A stretch of 64,000 nucleotides of DNA from Planctomycetota bacterium (GTDB lineage Bacteria; Planctomycetota; MHYJ01; JACQXL01): assembly GCA_016235865.1 (NCBI GenBank), contig JACRIK010000018.1, positions 1 to 64,000 on the forward strand, in the 5' to 3' direction. Position 1 is the stretch's first letter. Each line of letters begins with the position of its first letter. The notes below the pieces were generated by a model. That model was not told where the DNA came from, ran no database searches, and worked only from the letters and a program-made list of their open reading frames with translations. This document shows positions 6,401 to 58,321 of this stretch, piece after piece. A program made the position numbers and the translations under genes.

Positions 6401-9400
6401 CTAATTACAGCAATATTGCGTTTGCCACAACCAGCCAGCAGGCGCCTGATGCGCCGACCGGGGCGACCATCACGGTCCTGTCCGACACCTCTATCAAAAT
6501 TGACTGGACCGATGCCTCAGATAATGAAGATAGCTTCAAGGTCCAGATATCCACGGACGGAACAACCTACACGCTCAAGACCACGACCGCGGCTAATGCC
6601 ACGGTATTTACCGATACCGGCCTGACGGCTTTGACGACCTATTGGTATCGGGTTTATGCGTATAACACGGCCGGCAGTTCCGGCTATTCCAACGTGGTTT
6701 CGGATACGACCAATGCGCCGCCCATACCTGATGACCCGACTAATCTGGTTACTACCACAGTTACTTCTTCATCTATCGGACTGCAATGGACTGATAATTC
6801 CAATAATGAGACCGGTTTTAAGCTGGACCGTTCTCCGGACGGCGTGAGCAACTGGGTGACCTTGACCACCACCGCCGGAAATGTTATCGCTTTTTCCGAT
6901 ACGGCGCTGACGCCAGCCACTACGTTCTACTATCGGGTCTATGCCTATAATTTGGGCGGTGATTCCGGTTATGCTTCCGTGACAGCGGCCACATTCGCCG
7001 TACCGGATAACCTGGCTTTTTCGGTTCAGCCCGTTAACACGGCAGCCGGTGCGACCTTTCCTGCGGTCCAGGTGACTGTCAGAGACGCGTCTAATAATCC
7101 ATTAGCATTAGATGGCATACCCATTACGTTTACTATTAATAAAGGCACGTTAAACGGCACCTTAAGCAAGAATACCGTAGCCGGAGTGGCTACTTTCAGC
7201 GATTTGAATATGACTTTAGCCGATACCGGTTATGCCATTACGGCTTCTTCAGGCGGGCTGACCCCGGCCGCCTCTAACGCATTTAACATTACATTTGCGG
7301 CGGCTAATAACTTAACCTGGGTAACCAGTCCCGCCAATTCCGTGGCGGGATCAACCATGGCTGCGTTTACGGTCCGGGTCAGGGACGCCTATGCCAACAA
7401 TGTCCAGGGCACGACCGTATCAGTGACTACCACTAATTCTGCGCTGGCGGTTTATCAAGGCGGCACAGCGGTGGCGGATTATGCCACAGCCGGCAGCGGC
7501 GCCGATGGCCTGGCGACATTCTCCACCATTAGTATGACTGCGGCCGGGACCGGATATGTATTCCGGGCATCAAGCGGCGCTCTGGCTACGGTTGACTCCG
7601 GCGCATTTAATATCACGCCGGACGCGGCGGATAATCTGGCTTTTGTGCAGCAACCAACCACTACATCGGCCGGCGCCACCATGTCACCGGTGACGGTCCG
7701 GGTTAAAGACGTATATGATAACCTTATTTCCGGCCAGGCGGTTTCTATCACCACCACGGACGGCACGTTGATAAATGGCACGCTCACCCAGAACAGTGAT
7801 ATAAATGGTATCGCCACCTTTACGCCATTGAGCATGACCGCACCCGGCACCGGATATGTTTTGAGCGCGACTTCCGGTGCGTTAGTGGTTACTTCAGATG
7901 CATTTAACATTTCAGGAGCGGCGGCAAATTTGGCCTTTGTCCAGCAGCCGGCTAATACAATGGCCGGAGCTACGATGTCCTCAATTACGGTTTTAGTAAG
8001 GGATCAGTTTAACGATCCGCAACCAGGCATAACAATTTCCTTGACCACCACCAACGGTACGCTTATAAATGGAACGCTTTCTAAGGATAGCGATATCAAT
8101 GGCGTTGCCACCTTTGATGATTTAAGTATTACTTTGGCGGCCAATAACTATGCCTTGAGCGCCTCGGCTCTGACCTACACCGTTGCCGCCATAGTTTCCA
8201 CTTCATTTAATATCACACCGGCCTCGGCTAATAGTTTAACCTTTTTCACGCAACCGGCGAATACCGTGGCCGGAGTAACTATGTCCATAGTTCGAGTTCG
8301 GGTTTGGGACCAGTATGCCAATGTGGTTCCATCCGTGGCCGTATCGCTGACTACCACCACCCAGTTGAATGGCACCGCAACGATTACCAGCAACGCTATC
8401 GGAATAGCCGCATTTAATGATTTATATATAACCACCACCGGGACATATCAATTATCAGCCCGGGCCGGCGCCGTTGGCCCGACCAGCTCAAATAATTTTG
8501 ATATTACGCCGGGCGCGGTAATGACCGTGGCGGTTTCCGGAGATACTCCGATTACCTCCGGTATAGAATCCTCATCGTATACTGCGGTATCCAGGGATGC
8601 TTATAATAATAATGTTTCGGATACTTACGCCTGGACAAAGGCCAACGGCACAGGTACAGCCACTCTCAGCGTAGATAAGCTGACCGGCGTCCTGTCCGGG
8701 ACCGTCACCATCACGGCCACCTCTGATGCTGCGCCGGCTAAATCCGGCGGAAAAACAGTCACCGTAAATCCGGGAGCGCCCAGTAGTCTGACCTTCGTCC
8801 AACAGCCGACTACGGCCACTGTGAGCGTGGCCATCACTCCGGCCATTACAGTCCGGGTTAAGGATGTCAATAACAATCTTTTATCAGGCGTTTCTGTTTC
8901 CGTCACCACCACAGGTGGCACGGCTTTAAGCGGTACGCTTACCCGGAGCAGTGATTCCGGCGGTATTGCGACCTTTAATGATTTAAGCATCGCGTCCGAA
9001 GGCAATTATTCCTTATACGCCACCACGGGCCTGATTACCACGACCTCAGCTTCATTTAATATTATGCCGACCCTGCCCAACGTACCGTCCGGTCTGACGG
9101 CCACGGCGATTTCGCCTACCGCCATAACCATTACCTGGACAGATACATCAAATAATGAGAGCGGGTTCAAGATAGAGCGTTTCATCTCAGGCAGTTATCA
9201 GGAGATTGCCACCACTACGGCTAATACAGCGGTTTATACCAATAACGGCTTGTCAGGTAACACGCTTTACTATTATAAAGTCCGGGCCTACAATGTGACC
9301 GGCAACTCCGATTACAGCAATGTGGCTTCAGCCCAGACTCCGATTGCGCCGCCAACGGCGCCGAGCGGACTGATTACCACCTCGGTCACGGCTTCGGTCA

Positions 9401-26462: not shown

Positions 26463-26476
26463 AATCGGTTCTCCTT

Positions 26477-26537
26477 ACTGGCTGTTAGTCCCAATAGGGC
26501 TTTACAGCCAGTTACCCCGATAGTATTTATCGGGGTT
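26477..26537 (-). repeat. Two-hairpin element ahead of sppA
   Basis: Read on the sppA strand: a CCCCGAT/ATCGGGG hairpin, then a hairpin with 9-bp arms (plus-strand positions 26477-26485 and 26504-26512). An inner GCCC/GGGAC pairing extends it. The last arm runs straight into the AAGGAG of sppA. Confidence 0.8.
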
Positions 26538-28162: not shown

Positions 28163-29032
28163 TTACAACTGCATCTGTCTCAATTGTTTATCCGGCACGC
28201 GAAATCCGGACCAGTGCACGTATTCCTCTCTGGGCAGTTTTTGGTATTGCTCGAAGCTGATGGTTAGGATGAATCCGCCCTTGACCGGCACCTTACGATA
28301 ATGCACCTCGGCAAAGAACCGGTCGTCTTTGGGAATGGCCTTTAAACTGCGCAGGGTTTTATAGTCGTGATAAGCCTGGCGGCTGCCCACCAGGCCGTCA
28401 TAGGCGCTGTCCGTGACATAATAGACCTCGTTCTTCTTGCGGTATTTGTCCAGCACCTGTTCAGAAAAGAAGATGCCGTGGATGCCGTCAGGAGCGTATC
28501 TGAATTTCCGGTTGAGCATATAGCGGGCCAGCTCGGTCTTGATAAGACGCCAGACCCCGGCAATCTTGGTGGCCGGAAGTTTGCCGTCCTTGATTAATCG
28601 GTAGATGGTTCGGCGGTTGACGCCTAATATCTTGGATGCCTCGCTTAAGTTCAATACGCCACCCTCAAAATTCATTCCTAATACATGGGATGGTACCTCG
28701 CGTCCCCGGGTCAGAAATTTCCGGACATCATTCCTGGCGAATCTCCATTGGCCGCCTGATTTTGTGGTTGGTATTTTGTTGGACTTGATCAATCGGTATA
28801 TAGTAAACCGGCTTAGACCCAAATATTCACAGACCTCATTCAGGGTCATCAGGTCTGGTTTAATTACAGATTGGGCAGGGGATTTGCAGGTAAGTAATCT
28901 ATCCAAGTCGTGTTGCTCAAAGCGCCACTGGCCGGCCAATCGCCTGGCCGGCAGCTTGCCGGACTTGATTAAGCGGTAAACCGTAATGACAGAGACACCG
29001 AAATATTTACAGACGTCTTTTACATTCAACAT
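28163..29032 (-). CDS. Protein with three tandem excisionase-type HTH domains
   Basis: The start at 29032 (MLNVKDVCKYFG) aligns with the first domain; the frame stays open further upstream but overlaps the next gene. The 289-residue product holds three copies of the excisionase/MerR-like DNA-binding domain. Each has the pattern x-L-x-[DE]-[VA]-[CS]-[KE]-x-[LF]-G-V-[SN]-x-x-T-[IV]-Y-R-L-I-K, at about residues 1-48, 63-112 and 127-173. A C-terminal region of about 110 residues (KYRKKNEVYYVTDSAYDG and onward) matches nothing I know. One such domain is normally enough, so three suggest binding to spaced repeated sites. It is probably cotranscribed with the HTH gene just upstream and lies about 1 kb from a 22-bp repeat array. 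Confidence 0.8.
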   Translation of the reverse strand: MLNVKDVCKYFGVSVITVYRLIKSGKLPARRLAGQWRFEQHDLDRLLTCKSPAQSVIKPDLMTLNEVCEYLGLSRFTIYRLIKSNKIPTTKSGGQWRFARNDVRKFLTRGREVPSHVLGMNFEGGVLNLSEASKILGVNRRTIYRLIKDGKLPATKIAGVWRLIKTELARYMLNRKFRYAPDGIHGIFFSEQVLDKYRKKNEVYYVTDSAYDGLVGSRQAYHDYKTLRSLKAIPKDDRFFAEVHYRKVPVKGGFILTISFEQYQKLPREEYVHWSGFRVPDKQLRQMQL

Positions 29033-29036
29033 AAGA

Positions 29037-29495
29037 TTAAGGGCGGTCCGGGCCGCTGGCCCATAATTCCTTATTAATAATCTGCCTGATTCGTTCGGCT
29101 GAAATCGTAATCTGCCACTGATCGCGCACCCAGTTGGCCGTCTTGTGATAACTCCAGGTGGGCACATATTTCTTGCTCCGCATCGCGGCCAGATAGTTGC
29201 CGGTTTTTAATATCTGGTTAATCTGCTCAGGCGTTAATTTGGCGGGCTTGGCTGGTTCGGACAGTCCGTCCAGTCCTTTTTTCCGATACCGCCTGAGCCA
29301 GGTATAAACCGAACGGCTGGAGCAGTTCAATTGCTCGGCAATCTGTTTGATGGTCCGGAAATGATGGGATAACCATACGGCTTGGCCGCGGAGTTTTGCC
29401 CGGAGATTTCCCTTGAGCGCCATCCGATTCATAAAAAAGGTCAGGCGGGCGCACTCGGCCTGTTCCAGGCGGATAAAAATAGGTGGTTTAGGCAT
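29037..29495 (-). CDS. Helix-turn-helix protein resembling an IS630 transposase N-terminus
   Basis: The 152-residue protein starts at MPKPPIFIRL and contains a homeodomain-like/winged-helix pair: HHFRTIKQIAEQLNCSSRSV, then the KKGLDGLSEPAKPAKLTPEQ linker. These features begin many IS630-type transposases. The DDE catalytic domain is absent, and the frame ends 4 bases before the start of the three-HTH gene. It is either a transposase remnant kept as a DNA-binding protein or a real regulator. Its 5' flank is a dispersed inverted repeat (29510-29590), and an in-frame upstream start would be encoded by that repeat, so I exclude it. Confidence 0.65.
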   Translation of the reverse strand: MPKPPIFIRLEQAECARLTFFMNRMALKGNLRAKLRGQAVWLSHHFRTIKQIAEQLNCSSRSVYTWLRRYRKKGLDGLSEPAKPAKLTPEQINQILKTGNYLAAMRSKKYVPTWSYHKTANWVRDQWQITISAERIRQIINKELWASGPDRP

Positions 29496-29509
29496 ATAAA
29501 TAATAAATT

Positions 29510-29590
29510 GGATTGCTTCGTCGCTTCGTAGCCAGGATCCTCGCAATGACCATATGAACTATTGTCATTGCGAGCGTTAGCGAAGCAATC
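29510..29590. repeat. Dispersed inverted repeat (GATTGCTTCG ... CGAAGCAATC type)
   Basis: The left arm GATTGCTTCGTCGCTTCG through TCGCAATGAC and the right arm GTCATTGCGAGCGTTAGCG through AAGCAATC are inverted copies separated by about 14 bases. This is a well-known repeat type in many environmental bacterial genomes. It lies upstream of the HTH gene. Confidence 0.8.
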
Positions 29591-29927
29591 TCTATTAAAC
29601 TTAGAAATTCCATACGACAAGTCAATCTTGCCTGATTCAGCAAATCAATATTTCCACATTCGCAAGTCTATCTTTCCACTTATACCAAAAAATACAGTTT
29701 ATTTGGCCATATTTGCCCAATATAACGAGTATTTGGCCCGGTATTCAATGAAAAACAGGGGTAACCAGGCCGCAAAACAGGCCAATTCTTACCTGCCTGC
29801 CGGCAGGCGAGCCATCTGAATCATCTTATATATTAGCAAATATATCAAAACATATCAAGGAATGTAGCAAGATATTGCAAACTATGACACCTTATGTCAC
29901 TGACTGGTATCCCCACCCCTACCCAGG
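29591..29927. other. Gene-free spacer before array 1
   Basis: There is no convincing gene. It holds an AT-rich stretch, repeated TTTGGCC-type words, and a perfect 14-bp palindrome GCCTGCCGGCAGGC (about 29794-29807) of a widespread dispersed kind. An open frame at 29562-29819 begins inside the dispersed repeat and looks fortuitous. Confidence 0.6.
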
Positions 29928-30323
29928 GTGTAGATAACCCATATCCTGGGTGTAGATTACTCATATCCTGGGTGTAGATTATCCATATTCCGGGTGTAGA
30001 TTATCCATATCCCAGGTGCAGATAACCCATATCCCGGGTGCAGATTACTCATATCCGGAGTGCAGATTACTCATGCCCGGAGTGTAGATTACTCATATCC
30101 CGGGTGTAGATTACTCATATCCCGGGTGTAGATTATCCATATCCCGGGTGTAGATTATCTATATCCCGGGTACAGATTACTCATACCCGGAGTGCAGATT
30201 ACTCATATCCCGGGTGTAGATTATCCATATCCCGGGTGCAGATTACCCATATCCGGAGTGAAGATTACCCATACCCGGGGTGAAGATTATTCATACCCGG
30301 AGTATAGATAACTCTTACCCCTG
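29928..30323. repeat. Array 1: eighteen 22-bp tandem units
   Basis: Eighteen units follow one another with no insertion or deletion until one extra base at the end of the last. The consensus is GTGTAGATTA, two pyrimidines, then CATATCCCGG; units differ at up to about seven positions. Each junction recreates CCCGGG or a close relative. The array lies between the HTH gene pair and the TonB receptor, contains no gene, and begins and ends in degenerate half-units. Confidence 0.93.
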
Positions 30324-30409
30324 GTTAAGGACAGACAGGGGGGTATCTAGGAAAAAACGCAGCGGAGTGACCTGGCATCATTTGAATTAACGCGGAATTA
30401 TCCTGGAAT

Positions 30410-53646: not shown

Positions 53647-54122
53647 TATTTGTACTGCTTCAGTATTCCTTCTATCTTCTTGGGTGTTAATTGCCCGTGG
53701 TATTCGCCGTTGATGACGATGACCGGACCGAGCGCGCAGGCGCCCAGGCAATTGACGCCCTGGAGGGAATATTTCAGGTCGGTGGTGGTATCCGGGGCCT
53801 TGATGCCCAGCCGTCTCTCGATTTCCTCTAAGATGCGTTTGCCGCCCCGGACATGGCAGGCCGTGCCCAGGCAGACGCTGATGGTATACTTGCCGCGCGG
53901 CTTGAGGGTAAATGCCCGGTAGAAGGTAGCCACACTATAGACCCGGTTCAGGGGCACGTCCAGGCGCAGGGCAATGTGCTTCAGTGCCTCCTTGGGCAGG
54001 TAATTCAGTTCCTTCTGGGTGTCCTGCAAAATCCCGATAAGGGCCGATTCCTCGTAGAGATGTTTCTCGATGATCTCGTCTACCTTGGCAATTGTCGGTG
54101 ATTCCGTAGTTACAACGGGCAT
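53646..54122 (-). CDS. nuoE: NuoE-type [2Fe-2S] subunit
   Basis: The 158-residue protein has the helical N-terminus and thioredoxin-like fold of NuoE, with four Cys ligands in CLGTACHVRGG and NCLGACALGPV. It docks with NuoF and carries a side [2Fe-2S] centre thought to take part in electron storage or bifurcation. LNYLPKEALKHIALRLDVP and VYSVATFYRAFTLKPRG are family signatures. A two-hairpin element ends at its AAAGGAG ribosome-binding site. Confidence 0.95.
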   Translation of the reverse strand: MPVVTTESPTIAKVDEIIEKHLYEESALIGILQDTQKELNYLPKEALKHIALRLDVPLNRVYSVATFYRAFTLKPRGKYTISVCLGTACHVRGGKRILEEIERRLGIKAPDTTTDLKYSLQGVNCLGACALGPVIVINGEYHGQLTPKKIEGILKQYK

Positions 54123-54138
54123 AATAACTCCTTTTCTT

Positions 54139-54195
54139 AGAGCCAGTTAGAACGCAGTGAGTTACTGGCTCTTAGATCCCGCAGAATTGCGGGAC
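54139..54195 (-). repeat. Two-hairpin element ahead of nuoE
   Basis: On the gene strand: CCCGCA/TGCGGG hairpin (plus 54178-54193), GATCTAAG linkage and a hairpin with 9-bp arms at 54139-54147 and 54164-54172. It leads straight into AAAAGGAG of nuoE. Confidence 0.85.
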
Positions 54196-54204
54196 TACAT
54201 TATC

Positions 54205-54768
54205 TTACTTCTTTGCTTCCTCCAAGCAGTTTTCAATAATATTGGTTCTTAGTTCCTTGTATTTGTCACACTTCCAGCACTGGTAATCCACGTTGCACGG
54301 TTCCAGGAGAATCTTGCCGGTGACCGTGTATTTGCACTTGCGCAGATGGGCCGGCAGGGTCTTGAGTTTCTCTATCTGGCCGGCTACCTGGGGTTGCTCA
54401 ACGTATTTACCGTCCTTTTCTATGAGCATCTGTTCGAACTGGCAACTCTGGCAGTCGTAGTTACGGGTGCACAGGCGGTAGGAGACGGTCTCCTGCCTGA
54501 GCCAGACGCAGTATTTCTGGTCCTTAGATTCCCCCTTATCAAAGGGGGATGAAGGGGGTTGTAATTCTTTGGCTACAGAACAGGTGGCGCAGGTTGCCGG
54601 CTGGGCCTTTTTATGGCGCTTGCCGGTCACGTCCTTAAAGACCGGGCAGGAACCGTTGTCCGTAAAGCACGGGCTGACCAGTTGGGAGGACGAGGCCGGA
54701 ATCATCTTCTTCATCGGATAGGCCTTGCAATAGCGCATCACCACTTCTTCTAAATATGGGCACGGCAT
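54205..54768 (-). CDS. Cys-rich protein leading the electron-transfer operon
   Basis: The 187-residue soluble protein has about nineteen cysteines. The N-terminal third has a CPYLEEVVMRYC start and spaced Cys pairs (CFTDNGSCPVF, CATCSV). The rest holds two C-x12-C-x5-C-x2-C modules, one with SYRLCTRNYDCQSC and a more divergent one with CNVDYQCWKC. A 12-residue insert (about 69-80, PPSSPFDKGE) is encoded by a dispersed palindrome. It is probably a metal or Fe-S protein that interacts with the NuoG-like subunit and the Cys-rich regulator, which carry the same module. It is the first gene after the sigma-54 promoter at 54888. Confidence 0.8.
   Translation of the reverse strand: MPCPYLEEVVMRYCKAYPMKKMIPASSSQLVSPCFTDNGSCPVFKDVTGKRHKKAQPATCATCSVAKELQPPSSPFDKGESKDQKYCVWLRQETVSYRLCTRNYDCQSCQFEQMLIEKDGKYVEQPQVAGQIEKLKTLPAHLRKCKYTVTGKILLEPCNVDYQCWKCDKYKELRTNIIENCLEEAKK
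54530..54563. repeat. Dispersed palindrome in frame in the Cys-rich gene
   Basis: TCCCCCTTATCAAAGGGGGA followed by GAAGGGGGTT matches the sequence at 50163-50195. It is a widespread dispersed-repeat type whose translation PPSSPFDKG is found inside many bacterial proteins. Confidence 0.8.
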
Positions 54769-54784
54769 AAAATTAACCTCTCTT

Positions 54785-54853
54785 AGTCGCTGTTAGACCG
54801 AAGGTCGTTACAGCGACTTAGATCCCGATGATGGCGCTAAGCCATCCATCGGG
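54785..54853 (-). repeat. Two-hairpin element ahead of the Cys-rich gene
   Basis: On the gene strand: a CCCGATG...CATCGGG hairpin extended by TGGC/GCCA, GATCTAAG linkage, then a hairpin with arms at 54785-54793 and 54810-54818 and an inner GACC/GGTC stem. It ends at the AGAGG ribosome-binding site. It lies inside the leader of the sigma-54 transcript. Confidence 0.87.
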
Positions 54854-54887: not shown

Positions 54888-54903
54888 AGCAATTCCCGTG
54901 CCA
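54888..54903 (-). promoter_or_regulatory. Sigma-54 promoter of the electron-transfer operon
   Basis: On the minus strand the sequence reads TGGCACGGGAATTGCT with exact GG-N10-GC spacing. Transcription should start near 54877 and run through the Cys-rich gene, nuoE, nuoF, the NuoG-like gene and possibly the kinase and regulator. Confidence 0.87.
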
Positions 54904-55130: not shown

Positions 55131-55164
55131 GTTTTGCAGAAATGTGGGGGGATATAGGGCTTCC

Positions 55165-56132
55165 CTATGGGGGGTGGTGGGCACCTCTATGGGGGGAGTA
55201 GGGCTCCCCTATGGGGGATGGTGGGCACCCCTATGCGGGGAGTAGGGCTCCCCTACACGGGGAGTAGGACACCTCTATGGGGGGTGTTGGACTCCCCTAT
55301 GGGAGGTGCTGGACACCTCTATGGGGGGTGTTGGACTCCCCTATGGGAGGTGCTGGACACCTCTATGGGGGGTGTTGGACTCCTCTACACGATGAGTGGG
55401 ATTCCCCTATACGGGGGGTGGGGCTTCTCTATACGGGGAGTAGGGCTCCCCTGTACGGGGAGTTGGGCTCCTCTATACGGGGAGTAGGACTCCTCTATGG
55501 GGGGTGTTGGACTCCTCTATGCGGGGAGTAGGACTCCCCTATGGGGGGTGCTGGACTCCTCTATGAGGGGAGCCGTAGAGTTAGTATAGGGGTATGGGTG
55601 TAGGGTATATACCTATAGGGTGTAGGGTACCCCCCTATAGGGGCTATAGTAATATGGTAGTAGGACTAGGGTATACCTCTATAGGGACTAGGGTATGCCT
55701 ATAGTGGGACTAGGGTATGCCTATAGTGGGAGTAGGGTATGCCTATAGTGGGAGTAGGGTATACCTCTAGTGGGAGTAGGGTATGCCTATAGTAGGTCTA
55801 GGGTATGCCTATAGTGGGAGTAGGGTATGCCTCTAGTAGGTATGGGGTATGCCTCTAGTAGGTATAGGGTATTACTCTAGTAGGTATGGGGTATGCCTAT
55901 AGTGGGTATAGAGTATGCCCCTATAGGGACTATAGTATGCCTATAGTAGGTATAGGGTATGCCTCTAGTAGGTATAGGGTATTACTCTAGTAGGTATGGG
56001 GTATTCCTCTAGTAGGTATAGGGTATTACTCTAGTAGGTATGGGGTATGCCTCTAGTAGGTATAGGGTATTATCCTAGAGGGTATAGGGTATGCCCCCAT
56101 AGGGTGTAGGGTATATATCTATAGGGTATAGG
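55165..56132. repeat. Array 2: forty-four 22-bp tandem units
   Basis: 968 bases divide into 44 units of exactly 22 bp with no insertion or deletion. The first 18 units (55165-55560) follow CTATGGGGGG, TGTTGGACTC, C. Two transitional units span 55561-55604. The last 24 units (55605-56132) follow GTATGCCTATAGT, then GGGAGTAGG. Both families share a CCTATRGGG core in the same phase. The plus strand is strongly G-rich with many GGG-GGGGGG runs. No gene is present; a 106-codon open frame is a by-product of the repeat. Confidence 0.95.
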
Positions 56133-56184
56133 GGGGGTATCTAATTAAGTATGGGGTTTCCTGATTCCTGTGATTTCCTGTAGA

Positions 56185-57861
56185 CTATTTGCCCTCCTTG
56201 ACTTTCTGGATTTCCTCCTCCGACACGCCGAGGGCTTTTAGGGCTTGTTCGGAGTAATCACGAAAGGTTTTATATTCATGCTTAAGGTACTTCTTTATCT
56301 CAGGAATAGATTCCTTGTCACCTAAAATTCCAAGCGCCCTGATAGCTTCTGCTAACACAGCAACATCTTTATCATTAAGCAGTTCTTTTATCTTCGGGAT
56401 GGATTCTTTGTCGCCTAAATTGGCTAGGGCTTTAATGGCCAGACTACGGATTCCCATGGCTTTATCATTAAGTAATTTCCGTAACGTGGGTATGGATTCT
56501 TTATCGTTTAATTTGCCGAGCATTAAATATGTTTTATACCGTTTATCAGTATAATCCGGATTAAGTTCAACTGCCTTGTCATAGGCCGTAAGGGCTTCTT
56601 CATAGTTGCCTAAGAAAAACAGGATATCACCTTTTGTACCCCACGCTGTCCCATCTTTGGGGTCAAGTTCGATGGCTTTATCCACTACCTTGAGCGCTTC
56701 TTTATATCTACCGGATTCGTGCAAGATAGCAGCCTTAGTAAGCCAGGCAATTTTAAATTTAGGGTCAAGTTCAATGGCTTTATCGCAGGCTTTAAGGGCT
56801 TCTTCATATTTGCCCAAAGAAACTAAGACAGCGCCTTTTATACTCCACACCGTTTCATCTTTGTGGTCAAGTTCAATGGCTTTATTCAATGCCTTGAGCG
56901 CCTCTTCATAACGGCCTAAGGAAAACAGCATACGGCCTTTGTTGCTCCACGCTGTCGCATATTTAGGGTCAAGTTCGACGGCTTTATCCAATGCCTTGAG
57001 CGCCTCTTCATGTCTGCCCAAATTACCCAAGGTCGCGCCTTTATTACTCCATGTGTCAGATTCATTCGGATTTAGTTCGATTGCCTTATCATAGGCCTTA
57101 AGGGCTTCTTTATGTATATCCAAGCAAGCTAAGGCATCTCCTTTATTACTCCACGTTGTCGCATTTTTGGGGTCAAGTTCTATGGATTTATCGCTGGCTT
57201 TAAGGGCTTCTTCGTATCTACCCAAATTATTCAAGGCATATCCTTTGTTACTCCACGCTGCCGCATCTTTAGGGTCAAGTTCAATGGCTTTATCACAGGC
57301 CTTATTCGCCTCTTCATATTTACCCAATTTACCTAAGGTCGCGCCTTTATTACTCCACGTTGTTGCATCTTTGGTGTCGAGTTCTATGGCTTTATCAAAT
57401 ACCTTAAGAGCTTCTTCATATCTATTTAAGAAAAGCAAAGCAGCGCCTTTTACATCCCACGCATCAGCATTTTTGGAGTCAAGTTCTAGAGATTTATCGC
57501 TGGCTTTAAGGGCTTCTTCATATCTGGTCAAGTTGCCTAATGCAGCGCCTTTATTGCGCCAGGCCTTGGCGTTATTCGGGTCAAGCGCGATAGATTTCTC
57601 GGTTGATGCCAATGATTCTTCAAAACGTCTTAGCTTGCCCAGGGCGTGTCCTTTATAATACCAGGCCAGGGTTGATTGAGGGGCAATCTCTATGGCTTTT
57701 TCAGAGGCGGTCAGTGCCTCGACAAATTTACCTGCATCACATAATCTGGACGCCTCATCGCACCATATTTTAATGTCCTTGTTAGCCGAATCTATTGGCG
57801 TGGCGCTGCACCCGATTACGATAGTAATGATGATGCAGAGGAGAATGATTACCTTTTTCAT
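56185..57861 (-). CDS. TPR and HEAT-repeat lipoprotein
   Basis: The start at 57861 gives a lipoprotein signal (MKKVIILL ... VIGC), so I prefer it to an ATG 87 bases upstream. The 558-residue product has about twelve tetratricopeptide repeats of 34 residues with the repeated core RYEEALKA-DKAIELDPK (about 35-430). It ends with three PBS-lyase-type HEAT repeats (DKESIPTLRKLL, DKESIPKIKELL, DKESIPEIKKYL). TPR and HEAT repeats are protein-binding scaffolds, so a membrane-tethered assembly role is likely. The repeats are very similar to each other, indicating recent expansion. It begins 13 bases after the GNAT-like gene. Confidence 0.9.
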   Translation of the reverse strand: MKKVIILLCIIITIVIGCSATPIDSANKDIKIWCDEASRLCDAGKFVEALTASEKAIEIAPQSTLAWYYKGHALGKLRRFEESLASTEKSIALDPNNAKAWRNKGAALGNLTRYEEALKASDKSLELDSKNADAWDVKGAALLFLNRYEEALKVFDKAIELDTKDATTWSNKGATLGKLGKYEEANKACDKAIELDPKDAAAWSNKGYALNNLGRYEEALKASDKSIELDPKNATTWSNKGDALACLDIHKEALKAYDKAIELNPNESDTWSNKGATLGNLGRHEEALKALDKAVELDPKYATAWSNKGRMLFSLGRYEEALKALNKAIELDHKDETVWSIKGAVLVSLGKYEEALKACDKAIELDPKFKIAWLTKAAILHESGRYKEALKVVDKAIELDPKDGTAWGTKGDILFFLGNYEEALTAYDKAVELNPDYTDKRYKTYLMLGKLNDKESIPTLRKLLNDKAMGIRSLAIKALANLGDKESIPKIKELLNDKDVAVLAEAIRALGILGDKESIPEIKKYLKHEYKTFRDYSEQALKALGVSEEEIQKVKEGK

Positions 57862-57874
57862 ATCTACATCATTT

Positions 57875-58321
57875 TTATAATGATTTAACCACCAGATATT
57901 GGTTTGTCTTGCACCTTTCGCCGGGATTGTCAATAGGCACGGTGGCAAAGCCGAGTTTTTGCATTACCTGCAAGGCGCCTTTTTGATTGTAACCTATCTG
58001 TCCCCGGACGTGCTTACAACCTTTTGCCTTCAGATACCGGAGCGTGTTCTTAATCAGCGTCGGGCCTGATTTGGTGTCATGGCCGACACGGAATGCCAAA
58101 CCCTCTATGAAAGCAATCCGGTTGTTCTTTAGCGGTCCAATGGCCATGGGACCGATATCCATAGCCATAGCCGCATTGATGCGCGCGCCTGAATCTACCG
58201 CACAGATAAAATGGTAATCGCCTTTATCCGTCTTGTCGGCCCGCCACTTCATCACGTCGGGAAATAGCTTCTGGACTTGCGGCCAGATTTTGTGGTTCTC
58301 GCTGATATTTATGACCTTCAT
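57875..58321 (-). CDS. Probable GNAT-family N-acetyltransferase
   Basis: The 148-residue protein has the size and order of a GNAT domain: an N-terminal helix, a strand carrying FICAVDSGARINAAMAMDIG, and a VGHDTKSGPTLIKNTLRYL segment where the acetyl-CoA loop should be. QKGALQVMQKLGFATVPID matches the conserved Gly-A-L-x-x-x-x-K-L-G-F. The pyrophosphate loop is not a perfect Q/RxxGxG/A, so the call is by overall form. An AGGAGG site precedes the ATG. The substrate is unknown. Confidence 0.7.
   Translation of the reverse strand: MKVINISENHKIWPQVQKLFPDVMKWRADKTDKGDYHFICAVDSGARINAAMAMDIGPMAIGPLKNNRIAFIEGLAFRVGHDTKSGPTLIKNTLRYLKAKGCKHVRGQIGYNQKGALQVMQKLGFATVPIDNPGERCKTNQYLVVKSL

Follow-up and report, generated by a model that had tools for sequence, protein, structure and literature searches.

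The window, that is, the whole stretch of 64,000 nucleotides analysed here, belongs to a 2.67-Mb Planctomycetota MAG and carries a long tandem array between a NuoE/NuoF-like operon and a gene for a TPR/HEAT-repeat protein, as well as a second array some distance away. The features concerned are the following:

29895–29925, minus strand: C-rich doublet TATCCCCACCCCTACCC adjoining the second array, the G-tract doublet seen beside most 22-bp arrays
29915–30325, plus strand: second array of the window, 22-bp unit ACCCATATCCCGGGTGTAGATT, 18.7 units in fixed phase
54205–54768, minus strand: gene for a 187-aa protein without Pfam family, at the head of the NuoE/NuoF-like operon; about 380 bp lie between its start codon and the array
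54889–54903, minus strand: sigma54-like −24/−12 box TGGCACGGGAATTGC (consensus match only), 120 bp before the 187-aa ORF
55147–55572, plus strand: array A, about 19 units of 22 bp, consensus GGGGGGTGTTGGACTCCTCTAT, 83% mean identity, single fixed phase
55573–55594, no strand: degenerate A/B junction, from fixed-phase segmentation
55595–56133, plus strand: array B, about 24 units of 22 bp, consensus TGGGTATAGGGTATGCCTCTAG, 82% mean identity, single fixed phase
56128–56157, plus strand: conserved end of element B, GGGGGGTATCTAATTAAGTATGGGG, where homology to the copy on contig C35 ends
56185–57948, minus strand: gene for the TPR/HEAT-repeat protein, stop codon 52 bp from the array

Cut at every 22 bp, positions 55165–56132 fall into 44 in-register units, with an identity of 0.764 at lag 22 and 0.775 at lag 44 as compared to 0.14–0.35 at lags that are not multiples, and TRF reported period 22 over 55165–55570 and 55667–56133, which confirms the 44 units in one phase described by the sequence-only reading of this DNA. 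The two sequence families distinguished in that reading were also rightly recognised: relatives of array A were found at C21:164846–165213 and C30:22993, and those of array B at C35:26378–26811 and C18:100245–100622. Since A and B have separate relatives elsewhere, the array of 44 units consists of two adjacent elements, and their common register is weaker across the junction than inside either of them, because there the evidence for it is the constant 22-bp cut together with a shared TATG. The unit of the second array is unrelated to that of the array at 55165 and has its own relatives at C12:111912, C21:27712, C21:48600, C2:1 and C33:110988; GGGGGGTATCTA also follows the array at 29915.

The sigma54-like box, a consensus match only, lies between the array and the 187-aa and NuoEF genes, 244 bp from the array; genes for sigma54 activators are encoded near the window array. 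The nearest named relative of NuoF is 80% identical and comes from a MAG labelled 'Planctomycetota bacterium'. Among 59 relatives, the 187-aa protein is conserved at high score in two genomes only (G002 and G004), and the contig of G002 ends 200 bp upstream of its gene. Beside the second array, HTH genes lie at 28163–29546; their products are a protein in which an excisionase-like HTH occurs three times and an HTH fragment of the IS481/IS630 type, and a distant homologue of the latter adjoins a 22-bp array in G003 (L198:10463–10735). The window also holds members of a REP-like palindromic family (54118–54196, 54770–54831 and 26471–26534), of which there are 45 in the sampled 1.07 Mb, randomly spaced and without arrays; many such short families occur in the genome.

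Census of arrays in the genome

The tandem-repeat search was carried beyond the window to 1.07 Mb of the genome (about 40%), taken in stretches that comprised contigs C3 (596 kb) and C18 (132 kb) whole, C21 to 190 kb and smaller samples besides. Once multiples had been resolved, it returned 52 arrays, all with periods of 21 or 22 bp (42 of 22 bp and 10 of 21 bp). TRF clusters with a score of at least 100 numbered 38 at period 22 and eight at period 21, with none at 17–20 or 23–29, and scanning C3, C18 and C21 one lag at a time produced about 40 matches at lags 21 and 22 as compared to one at eleven other lags pooled. In a control set of 80 NuoF neighbourhoods of other taxa (1.16 Mb), period 21 was represented by four clusters and period 22 by one, and the other periods of 17–26 bp by only two clusters, one of 18 and one of 26. 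Since the samples outside C3, C18 and C21 were picked partly by array matches, the density was taken from C3 alone, where 28 arrays extrapolate to about 125 per genome. Contigs C2 (1–317) and C3 (1–350) start inside 22-bp arrays, which indicates that the arrays break the assembly.

Apart from dispersed families, unit sequences are mostly unrelated from locus to locus, and the preference across arrays is confined to a weak GGGTA/TATGGG, so that no single protein site is visible. The arrays run head to tail without the unique spacers of a CRISPR, and the single conserved site next to a rep gene that characterises iterons was not found either: units are unrelated between loci and no flanking gene recurs. 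An Rfam search of the window gave no match, and neither BOX homology nor a stable stem-loop was found. Coding repeats were discarded as a candidate, as 22 bp is not a multiple of three and 50 of the 52 arrays are free of overlap with predicted ORFs (gene calls being our own, ORF-based, with some genes missed).

Composite elements and their copies

The arrays are cores of dispersed intergenic elements in which a conserved side, bearing a G-tract doublet in most 22-bp elements, is followed by a tandem core of 4–25 units and another conserved side. In five aligned pairs, family copies have unique flanks in common, their ends are sharp, and they occupy unrelated loci in either orientation; four of the pairs are:

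C3:61182 and C3:441067: 384 bp, 88% identity
C3:199042 and C3:341564: 441 bp, 91% identity
C18:74928 and C3:536779: 384 bp, 87% identity
C1:201768 and C21:96032 (21-bp class): 600 bp, 82% identity

No clear terminal inverted repeats or obvious target-site duplications were seen in the aligned pairs, and neither a transposase nor a recurrent neighbour gene was seen beside the arrays; the genome has two Y1 transposases, neither of them near a known array. Of the 52 arrays, 33 have a G-tract doublet, e.g., GGGGGGAGGGGGTAGTATACCCC, no more than 200 bp away, which corresponds to 33/104 flank windows as compared to 21/1159 control intergenic windows (OR 25, p 1e-24). Within 120 bp it accompanies 29 of the 42 arrays of 22 bp and only one of the ten of 21 bp, and the two periods may therefore represent two classes. 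A 42-bp repeat (2 × 21) with CCCCCTGG...CAGGGGG palindromes was observed at a gene 3′ end (C21:141795–141958), at a place where the C21 lattice described below has no node.

Register and turnover of units

Fitting a single phase to the 52 arrays (692 units, 15.6 kb) left only 142 bp of the TRF ranges out of phase, while unit identity to the consensus ranged from 0.63 to 0.96. As TRF could favour regular arrays, indels were counted independently in aligned element copies: for every mismatch there were 0.018 gap openings in arrays (21/1199), as compared to 0.178 in the flanking parts of these elements (39/219) and 0.154 in the genome's other dispersed repeats (341/2221). Array indels are thus about ten-fold rarer per mismatch (Fisher p 6e-17 as compared to flanks and 2e-37 as compared to other repeats), where array mismatches are partly non-independent because units are copied, which is equally true of indels; many of the gaps in array alignments occur in compensating pairs.

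Array centres are more homogeneous than edges (0.83 versus 0.74), units two apart resemble each other more than neighbours do, giving a 44-bp higher-order pattern, and in one pair of copies the core differs by exactly 88 bp, i.e., four units. Taken together, these observations indicate turnover by whole units with the register kept, so that the continual unit-by-unit turnover suggested earlier is indeed seen. Of the other earlier suggestion, that exact 22-bp phasing reflects selection on a helical spacing of two turns for a protein binding every unit, the constraint on spacing is borne out by the ten-fold deficit of indels and the restriction to 21 and 22 bp. Phased A+T bending at 11 bp was considered as well; the A+T signal at the second (11-bp) harmonic of the units showed no excess (z 0.9), which leaves selection for bend strength without support.

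Gene context

Among gaps of 150–1500 bp, those bearing arrays (n = 27) comprise 18 co-directional, nine convergent and no divergent ones, as compared to 137, 25 and 41, respectively, for array-free gaps. Convergent gaps are therefore enriched (OR 3.6, p 0.008) and divergent ones avoided (0/27, p 0.006). The proposed link of the window array to the electron-transfer operon is not supported, as the class recurs about every 25 kb and 52 bp separate the array from the TPR gene's stop codon.

Chromosomal spacing

With arrays less than 3 kb apart merged and random intergenic gaps as the null, distances between neighbouring array places were 23.7, 20.9, 22.2, 25.2, 23.3, 45.5 and 16.9 kb on C21 and 25.2, 19.8 and 25.3 kb on C18, and more variable on C3 (3.6 to 49.5 kb). 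The coefficient of variation (CV) of the gaps on the three contigs was 0.419 as compared to 0.785 ± 0.114 under the null (P < 1/5000), and each of the three was significant alone (per-contig P 0.0013, 0.024 and 0.018). The result was robust to the use of 22-bp arrays only, of arrays of at least eight units, of other merging distances and of other nulls, whereas other dispersed repeat families on the same contigs were randomly spaced (CV 0.87 versus 0.88 for the family of 45 members). Even spacing was first noticed and then tested on these same contigs, and the sole independent data are 16 gaps on contigs not taken whole, where array places were located by similarity; the smallest of these gaps is 14.3 kb (P 0.005). 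Most nodes are at least about 12–15 kb apart, which results in a roughly even lattice of 20–30 kb. A hard-core exclusion of about 12–15 kb reproduces the observed CV, so that the evenness speaks to a lower limit on the spacing and not to an upper one, and even spacing can also arise by exclusion at insertion.

Arrays in related genomes

Arrays of 21 or 22 bp were also found in two relatives, G003 of the same family and G005 of the same order, and in a Brocadiia genome, in strict phase rather than with the ragged periods that would have spoken against a maintained register; the G doublet is less consistent in the arrays of relatives, and a conserved pair of flanks was found for none of the arrays of G003 or G005. 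A 21-bp family with a GAACGGTTC core occurs in two genera, at L196:14339–14733 in G003 and C30:42171–42420 in the genome studied here, with 85–90% DNA identity and no synteny between genomes whose proteins are 55–75% identical. Judged from sequence comparison, this excess over protein identity at non-syntenic places points to horizontal spread or strong constraint. Four further 21-bp arrays come from Stahlbacteria and one unplaced bacterium (L024:3292–3443, L053:5658–5750 and 7714–7800, L055:1130–1326); they are phase-locked, and to the eye their units look palindromic, unlike most of those described here.

Discussion

Unit length stays locked at 21 or 22 bp through all the diversity of unit sequences, a sign that the spacing as such may be important, possibly in folding the chromosome. 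The arrays are best read as belonging to BOX-like composite elements that lie between genes and are constrained both in helical register and in their spacing along the chromosome, plausibly for nucleoid architecture. Given the locked period, the protection from indels, the cassette organisation, the avoidance of divergent gaps and the spacing, we tentatively place first, at somewhat less than even confidence, the reading that the arrays form the node set of non-coding composite elements with an architectural or topological role. The stricter version, a lattice of about 125 architectural elements, one per 20–30 kb, recognised by two-turn periodicity and not by sequence, we regard as rather unlikely. 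The selected trait would be a DNA surface or shape recurring on the same helical face every two turns, either as the target of an architectural protein or through an effect on DNA topology, for instance as a supercoil domain or loop anchor, a plectoneme-pinning site or a topoisomerase landing pad; copies may have been seeded by cassette duplication or transposition and kept where they space the chromosome. Such a role is physically plausible: convergent genes, between which the arrays are enriched, accumulate supercoils. Bare DNA sequence can position plectonemes (PMC6301789). Counting against the role are the missing excess of 11-bp A+T signal and the want of a unit sequence common to the arrays.

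An architectural role is only slightly favoured over a mobile BOX-like element with insertion exclusion, and the two are compatible. The elements would then be non-autonomous, of the BOX/MITE type, with cores made of recombinase or host-factor sites and no host function needed, a plausible account that likewise stays below even confidence; their spacing would follow from insertion preference and exclusion near an existing copy, like transposon target immunity, which we hold possible to the same degree. Consistent with mobility are the sharp-ended copies with conserved flanks at unrelated loci in both orientations (380–600 bp, 82–91% identical), the families with several members each, the non-syntenic 21-bp family in another genus, the convergent-gene enrichment, which the arrays share with pneumococcal BOX, RUP and IS elements (PMC3049150), and the hard-core distance of 12–15 kb that accounts for the spacing. 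Speaking against it, no transposase or recurrent gene was seen beside the arrays, and no obvious target-site duplication or clear terminal inverted repeat in the aligned pairs. Exclusion, moreover, would have to act across unrelated unit families although the genome's other dispersed repeats show none, and mobility leaves the locked period unexplained.

Neutral minisatellites, originating in chance duplications, grown by slippage and unequal exchange and owing their phase to the scarcity of bacterial indels and to whole-unit exchange, would account for the homogeneous centres, the 44-bp pattern and the change in copy number by whole units. This explanation is nevertheless improbable, as it does not predict a period of 21 or 22 bp only in unrelated sequences, a ten-fold deficit of indels relative to DNA of equal divergence within these elements, even spacing or the avoidance of divergent gaps.

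Even less probable are elements of RNA or DNA structure, i.e., hairpins, intrinsic terminators or G-quadruplexes. The G-tract doublets beside the arrays and canonical G4 bases about ten-fold denser in flanks than in other intergenic DNA would fit them, but a G4 motif is present in only four of the 52 arrays, so that G-quadruplex arrays were rejected, the enrichment being that of flanks and mostly not of arrays. Dyads in the units, convincing by eye, were not enriched in consensus units as compared to shuffled ones (Stouffer z 0.9–1.4), and outward intrinsic terminators at element ends, at 6/104 as compared to a background of 3%, were not enriched either. The G-richness noted in the sequence-only reading is not general, GC skew being evenly of both signs over the arrays, and the G-quadruplex suggested there is not supported, as neither window array has a canonical G4. 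That the array regulates locally, through activator sites serving a sigma54 promoter of the NuoEF operon, can be given hardly any credence despite the box and the activator genes nearby: more than 50 further loci have arrays of this class but no such operon, divergent gaps, which bear promoters, are avoided, and A and B are copied elsewhere.

If the register and even spacing of the preferred architectural reading are functional, DNA would mark chromosomal domains by helical periodicity and not by a motif, a mode of marking that is, to our knowledge, undescribed in bacteria; copies with unrelated units would then be a natural experiment in which only length, register and spacing are conserved. 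If the elements are mobile, they would be unusual in that copies are mutually exclusive over about 12–15 kb. Either way, the arrays of this clade are register-locked markers that break assemblies and are worth recognising.

A literature search on 22-bp, planctomycete or helical-period arrays found nothing, which does not prove their absence from other papers. Direct repeats about two turns apart for protein binding on the same face are known from iterons and from the transposase-site ends of Tn7 and Mu (22-bp direct sites); there, a few sites sharing one sequence sit at a single origin or end, whereas the elements described here contain dozens of units of locus-specific sequence. REP/BIME and matS-like repeats are dispersed intergenic sites 3′ of genes, some of them tied to gyrase or nucleoid proteins, and matS sites are spaced at tens of kb. 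These are single conserved motifs, in contrast to register-locked arrays of varied sequence. Borg tandem repeats (PMC9879509) resemble the arrays in being genome-wide and head to tail with little shared sequence and in placing contig ends in arrays, but their units are perfect, A-rich and come in many lengths, and about half of them fall in ORFs, whereas the present arrays (A 24.6%) diverge up to 37%, have periods of 21 or 22 bp only and are intergenic, and hence are not of the Borg type. Eukaryotic transposons with internal tandem repeats such as Tetris (PMC4079207) are likewise mobile cassettes with a satellite core, but have foldback/TIR ends, which were not found here, and a unit length untied to helical turns. 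BOX of Streptococcus pneumoniae, boxA-(boxB)n-boxC (PMC3049150), is also dispersed, intergenic and non-coding, and its two ends are fixed while the tandem core between them varies. The elements of the present genome share with it the fixed modules around a variable core and the intergenic location with convergent excess, and differ from it by 4–25 core units of 21 or 22 bp instead of a few boxB, no enriched hairpins, many unrelated unit families, strict helical register and even chromosomal spacing.
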